This document shows positions 9,694-14,703 of a DNA stretch of 64,000 nt, in pieces. The notes below the pieces were generated by a model. The model ran no database searches, had not been told where the DNA came from, and worked only from the letters and a program-made list of their open reading frames with translations. Source of the stretch: Veillonella sp. T11011-6 (GTDB lineage Bacteria > Bacillota > Negativicutes > Veillonellales > Veillonellaceae); assembly GCF_002959755.1 (NCBI RefSeq), contig NZ_PPCW01000001.1, positions 186,001 to 250,000 on the forward strand, written 5' to 3'. The translations under genes and the position numbers were made by a program. The stretch's first letter is position 1. The number at the start of each line of letters is the position of its first letter.

Positions 9694-10143
9694 ATGGATA
9701 TTCGTGGCTTTGAAGTAGTTTCTGCTTTTGAAGAACAAGATATCAATTTACCGACACGTAAAACAACAGAAAGTGCAGGCTATGATATTGAATGCGCTGA
9801 AGCTGTTACTTTAGAACCAGGTCAAGTAGTACTCGTTCCAACAGGTCTTAAAGCTTTCATGGCGTATGACGAATATCTTGCTATTCATATCCGTTCTAGC
9901 ATGGCCATTAAACGCCATCTTGCACTTGTGAATAGTACTGGTATCATCGATAGCGATTACTACAATAATGAGGAGAACGAAGGTCATATCATGATTGCCC
10001 TCCTAAACTTTGGCAAAGAAACAGTTACCCTTGAAAAAGGCGAACGCGTTGCCCAAGGTATATTCTCTAAATACCTACTCACAAACGATGACGATGCAAC
10101 AGGCGTACGTACAGGTGGTATCGGTAGCACTGGTACAATGTAA
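9694..10143 (+). CDS. dut: dUTP diphosphatase
   Basis: 149 residues with all five trimeric dUTPase motifs: SAGYDI (1), HIRSSMAIK (2), NSTGIIDSDYYNN (3, holding the catalytic aspartate), KGERVAQGIF (4) and the glycine-rich C-terminal RTGGIGSTG (5). It hydrolyses dUTP to dUMP and pyrophosphate, keeping uracil out of DNA and feeding thymidylate synthesis. It lies ten bases after pnp and ends in a strong terminator. Confidence 0.95.
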   Translation: MDIRGFEVVSAFEEQDINLPTRKTTESAGYDIECAEAVTLEPGQVVLVPTGLKAFMAYDEYLAIHIRSSMAIKRHLALVNSTGIIDSDYYNNEENEGHIMIALLNFGKETVTLEKGERVAQGIFSKYLLTNDDDATGVRTGGIGSTGTM

Positions 10144-10171
10144 ACTACATACAATTCTGAATAGAATGATG

Positions 10172-10204
10172 AAAGCCGCTCAACCTATGTTGGGCGGCTT
10201 TTTA
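10172..10204 (+). terminator. pnp-dut terminator
   Basis: The stem AAGCCGCTCAAC / GTTGGGCGGCTT with one wobble pair and a short loop is followed by a T-run, 28 bases after the dut stop. It marks the left limit of the AT-rich accessory island. Confidence 0.9.
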
Positions 10205-10337
10205 TGTATTAATATGTTATGTAAACTTTTTAACTCATAATAAAGTGTTCAATTATATGATTATATGATATGATAATTCATGAACTTTAGATGAAGTGTT
10301 GTTTGGGGTATAAATTTTGGGTGTAAGGGAGATAATT

Positions 10338-11825
10338 ATGAACACATCAAAAGATAAACTATCTAGATATATGGATGCAGGTTTCCCTATTTTAATGTAT
10401 AACACGTATGATGAGCCTAATGCTGTTAATATATTAACAAATCTAGGTGATAGTAGAACTGTAATTCAATGGTCAGAAATTGGTATGATAGTAAATGAAT
10501 CAGATGCTAATGATATAACATTAGATTCGATGTTACAATTCTTGGTATCTACCGGTGGCGAAGATTTAAATTACTCTCTTATTATTTTGAAAGATATTAG
10601 ACATCATATTGATAATCCAAAAGTTATTGGTCTTTTAAAATACATTGCTCAGTTAATTACTACAGGCAGAGTTGAAGAGTGTACATTAGTTTTATTGGGG
10701 GAAAATATTGAATTACCAATCGAATTGGAGCCATTCGTAACAATTATAGATGAAGATGCAGTTAAACCAAATGAGATAGCTTTATGTATTGAACAATTTT
10801 GTAACGAACAAGATATTCCAGTTGATAATATATTGAAAGGAAAGCTTGTTAATGCATTTAGAGGGCTATCAAAGTATGAGATTGAAAATATTTTAGCATT
10901 ATCTTATGCAGATGATGGTGAAATTACATCTAATGATCTTGAGTTAGTGCTAGAACAAAAAAAACAAATTGTTAAGAAGTCTGGCGTTCTTGAGATGATT
11001 GCATTAGATGAAACCATGAATGATATTGGTGGTTTAGAAGTTTTAAAAGAATGGATTCAAAATAAGGCAAAAATATATAAAGATATTGATGCAGCTAAAG
11101 CTTTTGGTGTAGATATGCCAAAAGGAGTTCTTATTGCGGGCATTCCGGGTTGTGGTAAATCGTTAAGTGCTAAAGCGACTGCTAAACTATTTAATACTCC
11201 ATTGTTAAGGTTAGATATGGGGCGAATTATGGGGAAGTATGTCGGTGAATCTGAACAAAATATGCGTAAAGCAATAAAGATAGCGGAAGATATATCTCCA
11301 TGTGTTTTGTGGATTGATGAGATTGAAAAAGCGTTCTCTGGTGTTAGTGGTGGTTCATCTACAGGTGATATTACTAATAGATTACTTGGATCTTTTTTAA
11401 CATGGCTACAAGAGAAGAAAAGCCAAGTTTTTGTTATTATGACTGCAAATGATGTGAATAAGTTACCTGCAGAATTGATACGTAAAGGTCGCCTTGATGA
11501 AGTATTTTTTGTTGAGTTTCCAAATAATAAAGAGCGAGAACAAATCTTTAAAATTCATCTAGAAAAAAGACGTCCAACAGATTTAGCTAATATAGATTTA
11601 GACAAAATTGTTAGTAAAACAGATGGATATAGTGGTGCAGATATTGAAGGTGTTGTAAAGGATGCTATAGAATTAGCTTTCACATCCGAACGTAACGTAG
11701 TTACTACTGAAGATATTATTAAATCTATTGATAATACACATTCATTAAAGGTTATCATGAGTAAATCTATAGATGATATGATTAAGATTTATAAAGAAAA
11801 GAAATTTAAAAATGCTTCAAAATAA
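10338..11825 (+). CDS. Ycf46-type AAA+ ATPase
   Basis: 495 residues from the ATG after AAGGGAGATAATT; an in-frame TTG seven codons upstream lacks a ribosome site. The N-terminal part (about 1-215) has the Ycf46-like pattern: FPILMYNTYDEP, then LIILKDIRHHI, then ELEPFVTIID. The AAA module has Walker A GIPGCGKS (268-275), LLRLDMGRIMGKYVGESE, Walker B CVLWIDEIEKAF (about 322-333), SFLTWLQEKKSQVFVIMTAN and arginine fingers in RKGRLDE. The arrangement 'GIPGCGKSLSAKATA ... CVLWIDEIEKAF ... FLTWLQEK' is diagnostic of the Ycf46 family rather than FtsH. The family's function is poorly known. No protease domain is present. The next ATG lies 11 bases after its stop. Confidence 0.82.
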   Translation: MNTSKDKLSRYMDAGFPILMYNTYDEPNAVNILTNLGDSRTVIQWSEIGMIVNESDANDITLDSMLQFLVSTGGEDLNYSLIILKDIRHHIDNPKVIGLLKYIAQLITTGRVEECTLVLLGENIELPIELEPFVTIIDEDAVKPNEIALCIEQFCNEQDIPVDNILKGKLVNAFRGLSKYEIENILALSYADDGEITSNDLELVLEQKKQIVKKSGVLEMIALDETMNDIGGLEVLKEWIQNKAKIYKDIDAAKAFGVDMPKGVLIAGIPGCGKSLSAKATAKLFNTPLLRLDMGRIMGKYVGESEQNMRKAIKIAEDISPCVLWIDEIEKAFSGVSGGSSTGDITNRLLGSFLTWLQEKKSQVFVIMTANDVNKLPAELIRKGRLDEVFFVEFPNNKEREQIFKIHLEKRRPTDLANIDLDKIVSKTDGYSGADIEGVVKDAIELAFTSERNVVTTEDIIKSIDNTHSLKVIMSKSIDDMIKIYKEKKFKNASK

Positions 11826-11835
11826 TGGAGGAATT

Positions 11836-13305
11836 ATGGCAAATACTTTTAATGTGAAAGCATTTGAAGGTCTACTAAAAAAAGCAACTACTACTTATGA
11901 TAATTCTGTAAATAAATCAGGTGTATCAAACCAAGTATGGTTAAAGGATTACTTTAAATCAGAAATGCCTGAAATAAATGAAAAAGAGGCTGATGAACTT
12001 GCAAAGTCTAGTATAGAATCGTTAGAACGTTATGAAAAAGCTCAAGATGATTATAAAAAGGCGAAATCGAATAATGTAAGTCGAAGTGCATGGCTTAATA
12101 ATGCAATTTTAAAAGGTGGAGAAGTTTTTACTGCTGAAAGATTTACGCAATATTTATCTGAGATTGACAGTACACTTGTAAGATGTAATGAGGATATGAT
12201 TAATGTAGTAACTACACAAGCAGGGACTATTAATCAAAATCCTAATTTAGATGGGTTTATAGCTGAACAAGAATTAGTAAATACATTTAATGCCAATGCA
12301 GCATTAGAGAATTCTAATTTTAGAGCACGTGTTTTGCAACCAGAAGCAGGACAAACATATGGTAAAAACTCTGTAGATATAGCTGTTGATGATAAGTTTT
12401 GGGGACAAAAGAATATACAGCGACACCAAGTAAAATTTGGTAAAGATGCAAATGCAACTGCCAATATGGTAAATGATAAAAATTATAATAATCAACGTAT
12501 ATTAGTCCCTAAAAGTCAAACTGACGTTGTTAAGTCAAAACTTAGTAAACAAAAAACAGTATCAGATCAAATTAAAACAGAAGATGGGGTTTCTTCTGAT
12601 GCACTAAGTAAAAGACAAGCTAAAAATTTGCAAAATAGGGTACAAGATGGAAAAGCTTTAAGAAGGAAAGAATGGAGTTATTACGAAAATAAGCAACTAA
12701 TCACTAATATTGGAAAACAAATGATGCTTGCTGGTATTACAGGCGCAGCTTTAGGTACCTCCATTAAAGTGATGGGCGATTTGCTGAGCGGTAGAGATGT
12801 TAAATCTGATGAAGTTATGAAAACTGCATTTATAACAGGTGCAGACTCGGGCGCTAAAGCTGCGACAACAGGTGCACTTGTAGTTGCAACACGAAAAGGT
12901 ATTCTACCAATAGCTAAGAATACTTCTGCAGCATCATTGGGATTGGCTGGAGCAGTAATTATCGAAAATGCAAAAGTATTATATAAATTAGGAAATGGTG
13001 ATATTACACCTATAGAAGCTGTTGATGGTATGGGAGAAGCTACCACTATTGGAGTAGCGAGCCATTTTGGTTTTTTATCTGGTGTAGAATTAGGTGCAAC
13101 ATTAGGATCTATAGCCCCTGGTATTGGTAATGTTATAGGTGGTATTGTTGGTGCTATTGCTGGGTCAGTCATTGGCAAGACAGTATATAATGGAGCAAAA
13201 CGAATTGTAAAAGGTGCGGTAAGTACTGTTAAATCAGTTGGCAGTGCGATTTGTAGTGGTGTTAAATCTGTAGCGAAGGCTTTAAATCCATTTAATTGGT
13301 TTTAA
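11836..13305 (+). CDS. unknown protein with possible PD-(D/E)xK-like core and glycine-zipper tail
   Basis: 489 residues from the ATG after AATGGAGGAATT; an in-frame ATG at 11812 lies inside the previous gene and is less likely. Residues 1-130 are charged and helical. Residues 142-215 carry E144/E146 (FIAEQELVNTF), NSVDIAVDD (D181) and RHQVKFG (Q198, K200), an order that resembles the E-D-(E/Q)xK core of restriction-endonuclease-fold proteins (inference). From about residue 310 the chain is hydrophobic and glycine-rich (GITGAALGTSIKVMG; GIGNVIGGIVGAIAGSVIG), as in membrane-inserting glycine zippers. It ends in a basic amphipathic stretch. No signal peptide. I do not recognise the whole protein. 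Confidence 0.7.
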   Translation: MANTFNVKAFEGLLKKATTTYDNSVNKSGVSNQVWLKDYFKSEMPEINEKEADELAKSSIESLERYEKAQDDYKKAKSNNVSRSAWLNNAILKGGEVFTAERFTQYLSEIDSTLVRCNEDMINVVTTQAGTINQNPNLDGFIAEQELVNTFNANAALENSNFRARVLQPEAGQTYGKNSVDIAVDDKFWGQKNIQRHQVKFGKDANATANMVNDKNYNNQRILVPKSQTDVVKSKLSKQKTVSDQIKTEDGVSSDALSKRQAKNLQNRVQDGKALRRKEWSYYENKQLITNIGKQMMLAGITGAALGTSIKVMGDLLSGRDVKSDEVMKTAFITGADSGAKAATTGALVVATRKGILPIAKNTSAASLGLAGAVIIENAKVLYKLGNGDITPIEAVDGMGEATTIGVASHFGFLSGVELGATLGSIAPGIGNVIGGIVGAIAGSVIGKTVYNGAKRIVKGAVSTVKSVGSAICSGVKSVAKALNPFNWF

Positions 13306-13318
13306 AAGGTAATTATAT

Positions 13319-14044
13319 ATGGCAAAAAAGATAAAATTTCCATTAGAGTTTTCTAATGGTATAAAAGTTAGAACTTTAGAAGAATTACAGCAATATGCGG
13401 ATGTTAAAAGTATATTAAGATATTATCATAATGAAAAATTAAAAATATGGTTAGAAGCACGTGATTATAATGATATAGTATCTCAGATTATCTCAATTGA
13501 TACTAATGATACATCTTATGTTAATAAATTATGCAATATTCTTGGTATAGAGTATGAAGATTTAGATGTAGAAGTATATGAGATTCAGAAAAATGAAGAA
13601 AAGTTAAATCGATTGCGTTGTTTAACATCTGATGAAAATATATTATCTAGGGTGGAGAATATAGTATTTAATCAACAAGAATTAGATGATTTAGTTACTC
13701 AAATGCCCGAACTAATTTATTTATGCGCTAATGAAAACCAAATATATACTATCAATAAAAAACTTAAAAACATTAGATATATTGGGCTTTTTGGTAAACC
13801 AAGTATTCAAGTTGAGGCCGAAAATATGAGAGAATTATTCGATCTTGGAATTAAGTTTAAAGATATTGTATTGCCAGCATATTTACAAAAAAGTTTGAGA
13901 CCTGATGTTGAATATAAAGGTGATAATTTCACATCTAATAAAGAAAATAGACAAAATAAAAGTAATAATGAGAAAAGAGGGTTATTTGAAACTTTGAATT
14001 CCCTAGGGTATAAAGTAAAATTTAAGGATTATGATTTGAAATAG
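13319..14044 (+). CDS. small accessory-island protein of unknown function
   Basis: 241 residues. The N-terminal 75 residues (FSNGIKVRTLEELQQYADV, then ILRYYHNEKLKIWLEARDY, then NKLCNILGIE) look like a compact domain that I have a sense of having seen at the N-terminus of various proteins in anaerobes, but I cannot name it. The middle (120-200) is leucine- and isoleucine-rich, and the tail is Asn/Lys-rich and probably disordered before a short final motif. The start ATG is 13 bases after the preceding stop, so the three island genes form one operon. The gene is conspicuously AT-rich compared with dut and the Nudix gene. Confidence 0.65.
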   Translation: MAKKIKFPLEFSNGIKVRTLEELQQYADVKSILRYYHNEKLKIWLEARDYNDIVSQIISIDTNDTSYVNKLCNILGIEYEDLDVEVYEIQKNEEKLNRLRCLTSDENILSRVENIVFNQQELDDLVTQMPELIYLCANENQIYTINKKLKNIRYIGLFGKPSIQVEAENMRELFDLGIKFKDIVLPAYLQKSLRPDVEYKGDNFTSNKENRQNKSNNEKRGLFETLNSLGYKVKFKDYDLK

Positions 14045-14109
14045 GGCCTTTAATTTATTAGATTTTATGTTATAAGTCATAAGAACCTTAAATTTGCTAG
14101 ACTATTTTG

Positions 14110-14118
14110 TGTTATAAT
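14110..14118 (+). promoter_or_regulatory. extended -10 promoter of the Nudix-deoB genes
   Basis: TGTTATAAT (14110-14118) is an extended -10 element about 50 bases upstream of the Nudix ATG. The -35 is poorly defined. The same TGTTATAAT string occurs upstream of polA and of the candidate small RNA at 7429. Confidence 0.6.
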
Positions 14119-14169
14119 AAAATATAAATTTTATAGTGTAAAACTATTTATATATATGAGGAACTATAT

Positions 14170-14703
14170 ATGGCAATTAGCAAAGAGATACAAAAATCTA
14201 GCGAAATGAAATTTGATGGTAAACTAATTAAAGTTACTTATGATATAGCTGATGTTAACGGTAATGAAGCGTGGCGTGAGGTTGTTCATCATCCTGGTGC
14301 TACAGCTATTGTGGTTGTTACAGAAGATAATAAGATTGTAATGGAACGCCAATTCCGTTATGCTTTGCAACAGCCTTTACTTGAAATTCCTGCAGGAAAA
14401 CTTGATTCTAATGAAGAGCCTCTAAACTGTGCTAAACGTGAGTTAGCAGAGGAAACAGGGTATAGTGCGAACCAATGGATTCCATTAGGCACTATTGCAA
14501 CAAGCCCAGGTTTCTGTAATGAAGTACTACATTTATATTTAGCAAAAGATCTTACTATGGGCGAAACTAATTGGGATCCAGATGAATACGTTGAACTTGA
14601 GTATTTTACTTTACCTGAATTATTAGAGGCTATCAAGGCGGAGCAAATTAAGGATAGCAAATCTTTGGCAGCGCTTATGCTTGCAATGCCGTACCTCAAA
14701 TAA
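14170..14703 (+). CDS. Nudix hydrolase, ADP-ribose pyrophosphatase type
   Basis: 177 residues with a complete Nudix box, GKLDSNEEPLNCAKRELAEETGY (fits GX5EX7REUXEEXGU), preceded by ERQFRYALQQPLLEIPAG, which is typical of the ADP-ribose pyrophosphatase (NudF/YqkG) subgroup. It probably cleaves ADP-ribose to AMP and ribose 5-phosphate. The next gene, deoB, interconverts ribose 1- and 5-phosphates, so the pair suggests a shared role in pentose-phosphate salvage. They are separated by 21 bases. Confidence 0.88.
   Translation: MAISKEIQKSSEMKFDGKLIKVTYDIADVNGNEAWREVVHHPGATAIVVVTEDNKIVMERQFRYALQQPLLEIPAGKLDSNEEPLNCAKRELAEETGYSANQWIPLGTIATSPGFCNEVLHLYLAKDLTMGETNWDPDEYVELEYFTLPELLEAIKAEQIKDSKSLAALMLAMPYLK

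Follow-up and report, generated by a model that had tools for sequence, protein, structure and literature searches.

A three-gene cassette joining a Ycf46-type AAA ATPase to a candidate membrane-associated nuclease at an exchange hotspot in Veillonella

The nearest described counterpart of the genes examined here is found in the Type III-A CoCoNuT operons, for which Bell et al. (PMC11090510) reported three optional 5' extensions, one of them a SpoVK/CDC48-like AAA ATPase together with a glycine-zipper protein. This CoCoNuT-linked AAA has a C-terminal leucine-rich repeat and a biotin-carrier-like barrel, the adjacent bacteriocin-like glycine-zipper protein has a restriction endonuclease (REase) fold that was deemed inactivated, and the extensions, in the authors' own suggestion, could be stand-alone cassettes (PMC11090510). 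A comparable pair lies in the window analyzed here, a 64,000-nucleotide (nt) stretch of the 2.05 Mb genome of Veillonella sp. T11011-6 (contig NZ_PPCW01000001.1, positions 186,001 to 250,000), where it forms, with a third gene, an operon on the forward strand at 10205-14169, between the dut terminator and the ATG of a Nudix hydrolase gene (14170). As in the CoCoNuT extension, a SpoVK/CDC48-like AAA ATPase, in which only the C-terminal ATPase appears active, adjoins a protein (P2) with a predicted REase-type fold and a C-terminal glycine zipper, and the relatives in Klebsiella, Enterobacter and Escherichia coli ZF34 (L003, L149) match the published description. The window version differs, however, in standing alone, with no VWA, CARF, PP2C, kinase, McrBC or helicase; in having a third protein (P3) and an AAA without the repeat tail; and in the conservation of its nuclease residues, in a fold called inactivated in PMC11090510. 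Neither the McrBC-like GTPase/DUF2357 core nor a helicase, TerY-P triad or flanking VWA is among the three genes of the island and, because the CoCoNuT core is absent, the window version falls outside CoCoNuT. The initial annotation had singled out the locus as a candidate for an undescribed system, which holds in part: the pair of AAA and zipper/REase-fold protein is already in Bell et al. (PMC11090510), but the stand-alone form, P3, the way P3 and a repeat tail on the AAA stand in for each other, and the complete conservation of a nuclease site presumed inactive are new. We consider the cassette best explained as a horizontally moving, intracellular anti-invader module in which an AAA would control a membrane-active nuclease (probability roughly 0.6). 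That it is a conflict module of some kind is highly probable; genomic context strongly suggests a defense activity, with phage or incoming DNA favored to some degree as the main target. Its features are the following.

10205-14169, forward strand: the whole island, a three-gene cassette, with breakpoints from alignment to the empty site of a close relative (G005); guanine-cytosine (GC) content 30.7%
10338-11825, forward strand: AAA+ ATPase, 495 amino acids (aa), Ycf46/SpoVK/CDC48-like (PF00004, 1.9e-29; AAA_lid_3, 7.7e-13)
11139-11162, forward strand: Walker A GIPGCGKS (aa 268-275) of the AAA, from motif reading, conserved in the family alignment
11836-13305, forward strand: P2, candidate effector, 489 aa, with a helical N-terminus, a PD-(D/E)xK-type domain and a C-terminal glycine zipper
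12223-12615, forward strand: predicted nuclease domain of P2, about aa 130-260, with E144, D181, Q198-x-K200 and Q220, from family conservation and the structural model
13069-13176, forward strand: glycine zipper of P2, about aa 412-447, best membrane-type segment aa 429-447, from hydropathy, GxxxG spacing and a weak Gly-zipper_Omp match
13319-14044, forward strand: P3, presumed adaptor/sensor, 241 aa, with a conserved N-terminal domain and no curated family
13319-13558, forward strand: conserved N-terminal module of P3 (aa 1-80), from the P3 alignment; fused to the AAA in L129

Other known systems resemble the cassette in single aspects. IetAS and sgiAT of SGI1 share its two-gene logic, a related AAA ATPase beside a toxic effector, but their effector is a subtilisin-like protease, whereas here it would be a nuclease/glycine-zipper protein accompanied by P3; no protease family was recognized in P2 or P3 (Pfam, NCBIfam). 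The IetA profile matches the AAA domain of the window (E 9.4e-27), which scores 88.5 bits against the NCBIfam IetA model NF042959, far below the cut-off of 510. SNIPE (PMC13190303) likewise deploys a membrane-associated nuclease as an anti-phage effector, but it has a GIY-YIG fold and is a single protein with an N-terminal membrane anchor and no AAA partner, and neither GIY-YIG nor DUF4041, the SNIPE families, is among the Pfam matches of P2. Glycine zippers permeabilize or depolarize membranes in Tde1, a type VI secretion system DNase (PMC10240207), and in EsxX, an LXG toxin of the type VII secretion system (PMC12744356), a membrane-permeabilizing element that Tde1 joins to a DNase; these, however, are toxins that are secreted and come with adaptors or immunity proteins, and their abstracts describe no AAA partner. 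The MoxR-vWA ternary conflict systems (PMC7159879, PMC12839542) combine an AAA+ ATPase, a variable effector and a sensor logic in a comparable manner but employ another AAA clade and vWA-linked effectors.

The evidence for an effector centers on the middle domain of P2. Across 79 family members, L138-D-G, I142-A-E144, D181, Q198 and Q220 are invariant (79/79) and K200 is present in 78/79, the locus search being biased to nuclease-bearing forms as its search patterns were derived from nuclease motifs. In the AlphaFold2 model of P2 (mean predicted local distance difference test score, pLDDT, 77.7), this domain is modeled with confidence, mostly above 90, and comprises a helix (138-157), strands 162-166, 182-186 and 191-199, a helix (205-213), a strand (221-223) and a further helix; E144 sits on the first helix and D181 at the second strand, while QxK closes the third. 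In scaffold and core residues alike, the modeled domain is a PD-(D/E)xK arrangement with QxK as its last motif, and the E-D-QxK core that the initial annotation had considered possible is thereby borne out. The conservation of the catalytic residues speaks against an inactivated fold, and P2 is likely to be an active nuclease. A probable effector with a testable active site is thus indicated beside an AAA of the Ycf46/SpoVK branch. Structural comparison of the nuclease segment gave weak matches (Z 4.0-4.7), among them the restriction-type nucleases Can2 (4.7; 127 aligned residues, 4.9 A), BspD6I (4.3) and BstEII (4.2); Foldseek returned no significant match for the P2 or P3 model, the nuclease domain has no sequence match in the PDB, and PDB sequence searches yielded nothing useful for P2 or P3. 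Because the structural matches of P2 and P3 are weak at best, we claim no new fold. Neither protein has a family in Pfam, NCBIfam, PADLOC or PHROGs, apart from weak glycine-zipper matches.

These zipper matches, found with Pfam in 28 of the 79 members, concern the C-terminus of P2, where glycines G416, G420, G431, G435, G439, G443 and G447 are conserved, as is their spacing, in support of the glycine-rich C-terminus noted earlier. The C-terminal quarter contains a single borderline membrane segment (429-447), in a region of low model confidence, and is probably membrane-active. Three P2 relatives of 341-374 aa (L008:3475-4599, L009:3890-4915, L128:3095-4177) have no nuclease domain, retain the N-terminal helices and the glycine zipper, and still adjoin an AAA and P3; since both ends are kept in the absence of the nuclease, the membrane part may be what always acts as effector, with the nuclease as an addition. 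At two loci (L017:985-2547, L054:1275-2783), a second, diverged protein stands alongside P2, with an apparent E-D-QxK and a glycine-rich C-terminus by reading only. Although its nuclease core and glycine-rich C-terminus hold, the initial annotation, taken as a whole, is supported only partly.

The three genes travel as a set. P2 searches matched plasmids of Klebsiella, Enterobacter and others at 36% identity over 94% of its length; as a single query, P2 found no match in genome contigs, where matches came only with an alignment as query, and viral contigs gave none with three different queries. A four-member P2 alignment searched against named genomes recovered 80 P2 loci in about eight phyla (Bacillota, Pseudomonadota, Campylobacterota, Spirochaetota, Synergistota, Bacteroidota, Myxococcota and Thermodesulfobacteriota). 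An AAA homologue lies near P2 in 74 of the 79 scored loci, with a median gap of 12 nt (at most 50 nt in 51 loci and at most 3 kb in 72); of the five exceptions, L037, L046 and L082 have short flanks, and L060 and L073 apparently have no AAA. P2 and AAA distances are correlated over 73 pairs (Mantel r 0.58, p 0.001), a value to which shared descent contributes. When a separate sample of 398 genomes was searched with P3 as the anchor, three of the four matches, the window's included, stood beside or were fused to an AAA of this type. AAA, P2 and P3 thus belong together as one module, and homologues of all three occur side by side in many phyla, so that the first refuting condition set in the initial annotation, a lack of co-location elsewhere, does not apply. 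A TerY-P/helicase context accompanies P2 in only five of the 80 genome loci and is missing from about 75, so that the AAA-P2 pair, known as a CoCoNuT add-on, is mostly a stand-alone cassette. A distant P2 relative in Butyrivibrio (L005) has no obvious AAA neighbor of this type, and at three loci (L044, L052, L064) multiple short open reading frames (ORFs) intervene between P2 and the AAA, in contrast to the tight order elsewhere.

The assignment of the first protein to the Ycf46-type AAA ATPases stands. Beyond Walker A at residue 268, it has a Walker B DE (327-328), a KYVGESE pore loop, sensor-1 N371 and arginine finger R385; the apparently active module spans about aa 220-470 and is preceded by an N-terminal part without Walker motifs. 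The 73 aligned AAA members all retain Walker A and B, sensor 1 and the arginine finger, and a K-Y/F-V/I/L-G pore loop is present in nearly all; identity to the Klebsiella AAA is 43% over 347 aa. Judged from these motifs, the AAA is a protein-remodeling motor, and it probably acts on P2. The Ycf46/SpoVK branch has no settled bacterial role, and one of its subgroups now has a conserved partner set across phyla.

P3 (model pLDDT 85.5) introduces a further dimension. Its N-terminal domain, as captured by an 80-residue profile, is present in 54 of the 79 P2 loci, and in L129 (7083-9575, reverse strand) it is fused to the AAA in one protein of 830 aa. Past the first 80 residues the family is variable, with lengths mostly from about 210 to 801 aa and single members bearing Lcl_C, CobW, NAD-ligase/HHH or DUF6273 domains, or weak beta-propeller matches. 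Among loci with sufficient flank, and counting a tail as long above 80 residues, short AAAs occur 49 times with P3 and once without, whereas long-tailed AAAs occur five times with P3 and 17 times without (Fisher p = 3e-11), a count that overstates independence because the tail-bearing forms are mostly Pseudomonadota. The five long-tailed AAAs that coexist with P3 have tails of 89-166 residues, and HEAT and LRV repeats were matched in one of two long tails scanned. A constant, docking-like part joined to a changing distal part, with repeats taking its place elsewhere, makes P3 resemble a sensor or adaptor, a role to which we give an even chance, and its alternation with the repeat tail offers a concrete clue to how the motor might be triggered. 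A weak model match of P3 to CARF (E 0.0024, 36 residues) was dismissed as chance. Elsewhere (L143:5246-7120), a protein with the P3 N-terminal domain adjoins a 352 aa protein with a different apparent QxK pattern, with no such AAA nearby.

The island occupies a hotspot of gene exchange. Its three ORFs share one strand, with gaps of 10 nt and 13 nt, and its GC content is 30.7% against 37.3% in the rest of the window, lowest in P3 (25.6%), in agreement with the AT-rich three-gene island described initially; only one of 601 same-size windows stepped through the stretch has GC as low. Every other ORF of 60 aa or more between dut and Nudix lies on the opposite strand, overlaps the three genes and looks like a chance occurrence. 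The flanks, which lie outside the system, are the following.

9694-10143, forward strand: dut, left flank of the hotspot, in 14/14 genomes of the genus
10171-10202, forward strand: dut terminator, the hotspot's left border; the match to the empty site is complete as far as this point
14170-14703, forward strand: Nudix hydrolase gene, right flank of the hotspot, in 14/14 genomes of the genus

The closest relative by these two genes, G005, with a nucleotide-identical dut (100%) and a Nudix gene at 93.4%, has only about 160 bp between them, an empty site. As aligned sequences match to the end of the dut terminator and resume at the Nudix ATG, the island is 10205-14169; the left border first proposed (10204) was right, at about 10205, and the right one (14100) fell short, the island reaching the Nudix start codon and being slightly wider. 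No integrase is in the island, which therefore was likely exchanged by recombination in the flanks. The dut and Nudix genes are present in all 14 species of the genus compared, and what lies between them varies: beside G005, two further intervals are empty, five hold about 1.8 kb with one main ORF, one holds 2.2 kb and four hold 15-24 kb. The large cargo includes three dynamin-family GTPases, a NERD-helicase, a PIN-domain protein, a PDC-M37B-like AAA, a HerA-like ATPase and a Mokosh-like (MkoA-like) helicase (PDLC03920, E 2e-108). The interval is thus a general hotspot with conflict-type cargo and a new place to seek conflict genes in this genus. In L110-L120, dut-Nudix intervals of other species, a 538 aa protein, often the last before Nudix, resembles TROVE/Ro60 by eye. 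Neither P2 nor an equally close AAA was found in the other 13 species, where a P2-like match (L002, E 1e-4) covers just glycine-rich sequence within an unrelated protein of 807 aa.

Rarity and mobility recur at larger scale. P2 with its nuclease region was found in two of 398 genomes drawn from the phylum, the window's included, with two more having only the C-terminal part, and the P2 module is rare in E. coli (3/5,426 genomes). A quick P2 tree, with metagenome bins among its rows, mixes phyla with support of at least 99, grouping Anoxybacillus and an Aeromonadales bin, Azoarcus/Aromatoleum and spirochaetes, and Geobacter, Pseudoalteromonas and Achromatium. Of the 16 plasmids that carry P2, ten are conjugative, and several Bacillota loci adjoin genes that, to judge by reading, look like RadC, DUF932 and recombination genes, which suggests that they lie on integrative elements. 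WYL and CARF proteins are known companions of defense systems (PMC4012209, PMC9122601). In 27 of 66 loci a WYL regulator is encoded on the same strand no more than 1.5 kb upstream, with Pfam WYL in most members scanned, and some Pseudomonadota operons include a Card1-like CARF nuclease or NE0113 CARF protein, plus VWA, PP2C and kinase genes. In E. coli ZF34 (L149:15001-33722), the CoCoNuT-type version lies directly downstream of a type I BREX system, with IS2 between the first VWA gene and P2.

In the mechanism that we propose, P2 would be the effector, an E-D-QxK nuclease borne on a membrane-inserting glycine-zipper domain; the AAA+ protein, a putative hexameric remodeling motor, would keep P2 harmless, or load and release it; and P3 or, in other lineages, the HEAT/LRV repeat tail of the AAA, would be an exchangeable sensor/adaptor linking an infection cue to the motor. 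Upon triggering, P2 would enter or permeabilize the inner membrane and cut nucleic acid there, so that the infected cell is killed or the entering DNA destroyed. This proposal draws on co-location, conserved active sites and motifs, mobility, hotspot exchange, the P3/tail alternation and defense-type neighbors. In its most specific form, the proposal is tentative and rather doubtful: the cassette would be an immune module working on its own, whose Cdc48/Ycf46-type motor places a PD-(D/E)xK nuclease in the inner membrane to destroy incoming DNA or kill the cell, and sensing would be solved in two interchangeable ways, by a diversified P3 in one branch and by a repeat tail on the motor in the other. 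If true, this would be a membrane nuclease gated by an AAA, for which the literature searched gives no precedent in bacterial immunity. Several observations count against our proposal: the fold matches of the nuclease domain are weak (Z <5); the REase fold of the CoCoNuT-linked relatives was judged inactivated by Bell et al. (PMC11090510); the relatives without the nuclease imply that this domain is not indispensable; the P3/tail alternation follows phylogeny in part; the neighbor counts have no matched random control; the window locus has no WYL or CARF neighbor; and no phage-challenge or toxicity datum was found for any family member.

The same tight AAA-P2 pairing could, conceivably, be that of a toxin-antitoxin-like stabilization module of mobile elements, with P2 as the toxin, the AAA as the antitoxin, and retention of the element, not immunity, as the role. 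Carriage on conjugative plasmids and probably on integrative elements would fit, as would the precedent of sgiAT of SGI1, a proposed toxin-antitoxin whose subtilisin-like protease is partnered by an AAA of this superfamily (PMC10954446). We nevertheless regard this as unlikely: the cassette sits here by itself at a chromosomal hotspot, unaccompanied by other mobile-element genes, the diversified P3 and the sensor-like repeat tails exceed the needs of two-gene addiction, and the CARF and BREX neighbors indicate immunity. Those neighbors, together with WYL, also argue against an exported antibacterial effector, in which P2 would be a polymorphic-toxin-like DNase whose zipper carries it across the target membrane, the AAA serving to load or unfold it and P3 as its adaptor. 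Such an effector would share the nuclease-zipper combination of Tde1 (PMC10240207) and find company in the glycine-zipper LXG toxin EsxX (PMC12744356), and an AAA of the same family does adjoin a baseplate gene in Treponema (L010); but the Pfam scan recognized no trafficking domain in P2, clusters read by eye around the 80 loci contain no recurrent secretion genes, and a conserved nuclease domain beside a variable P3 is the reverse of the polymorphic toxin pattern, which leaves this explanation improbable.

Less probable still is the earlier proposal of Bell et al. (PMC11090510), an RNA-targeting restriction accessory linked to CoCoNuT, in which an inactive REase fold would bind nucleic acid and the CDC48-like AAA would act on stalled ribosome/tmRNA complexes. 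The TerY-P and helicase genes of such operons are indeed present at some loci, but these are the five of 80 mentioned above, and an inactive fold would not require an E-D-QxK invariant across 79 members. An ordinary host housekeeping operon, for which one could cite Ycf46-type AAA genes in unrelated contexts, is very improbable: P2 occurs in one of 14 species of the genus and one of 28 of the family, and the clean empty dut-Nudix site of G005 likewise shows that the island is not core, so that the pattern already contradicts a housekeeping role and the second refuting condition of the initial annotation does not apply either.

The Ycf46-type AAA family is, indeed, wider than the module. In a Treponema plasmid (L010:6097-9590), the gene for a related AAA adjoins that for a baseplate protein V, suggestive of a contractile-injection context for the AAA family. 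Another conserved four-gene set surrounds a related AAA in a Streptococcus satellite phage (L011:3163-7773) and in Fusobacterium (L012:3588-8061), where proteins of 572-582 aa and 161-171 aa, the AAA, and a protein of 160-164 aa make up the set.

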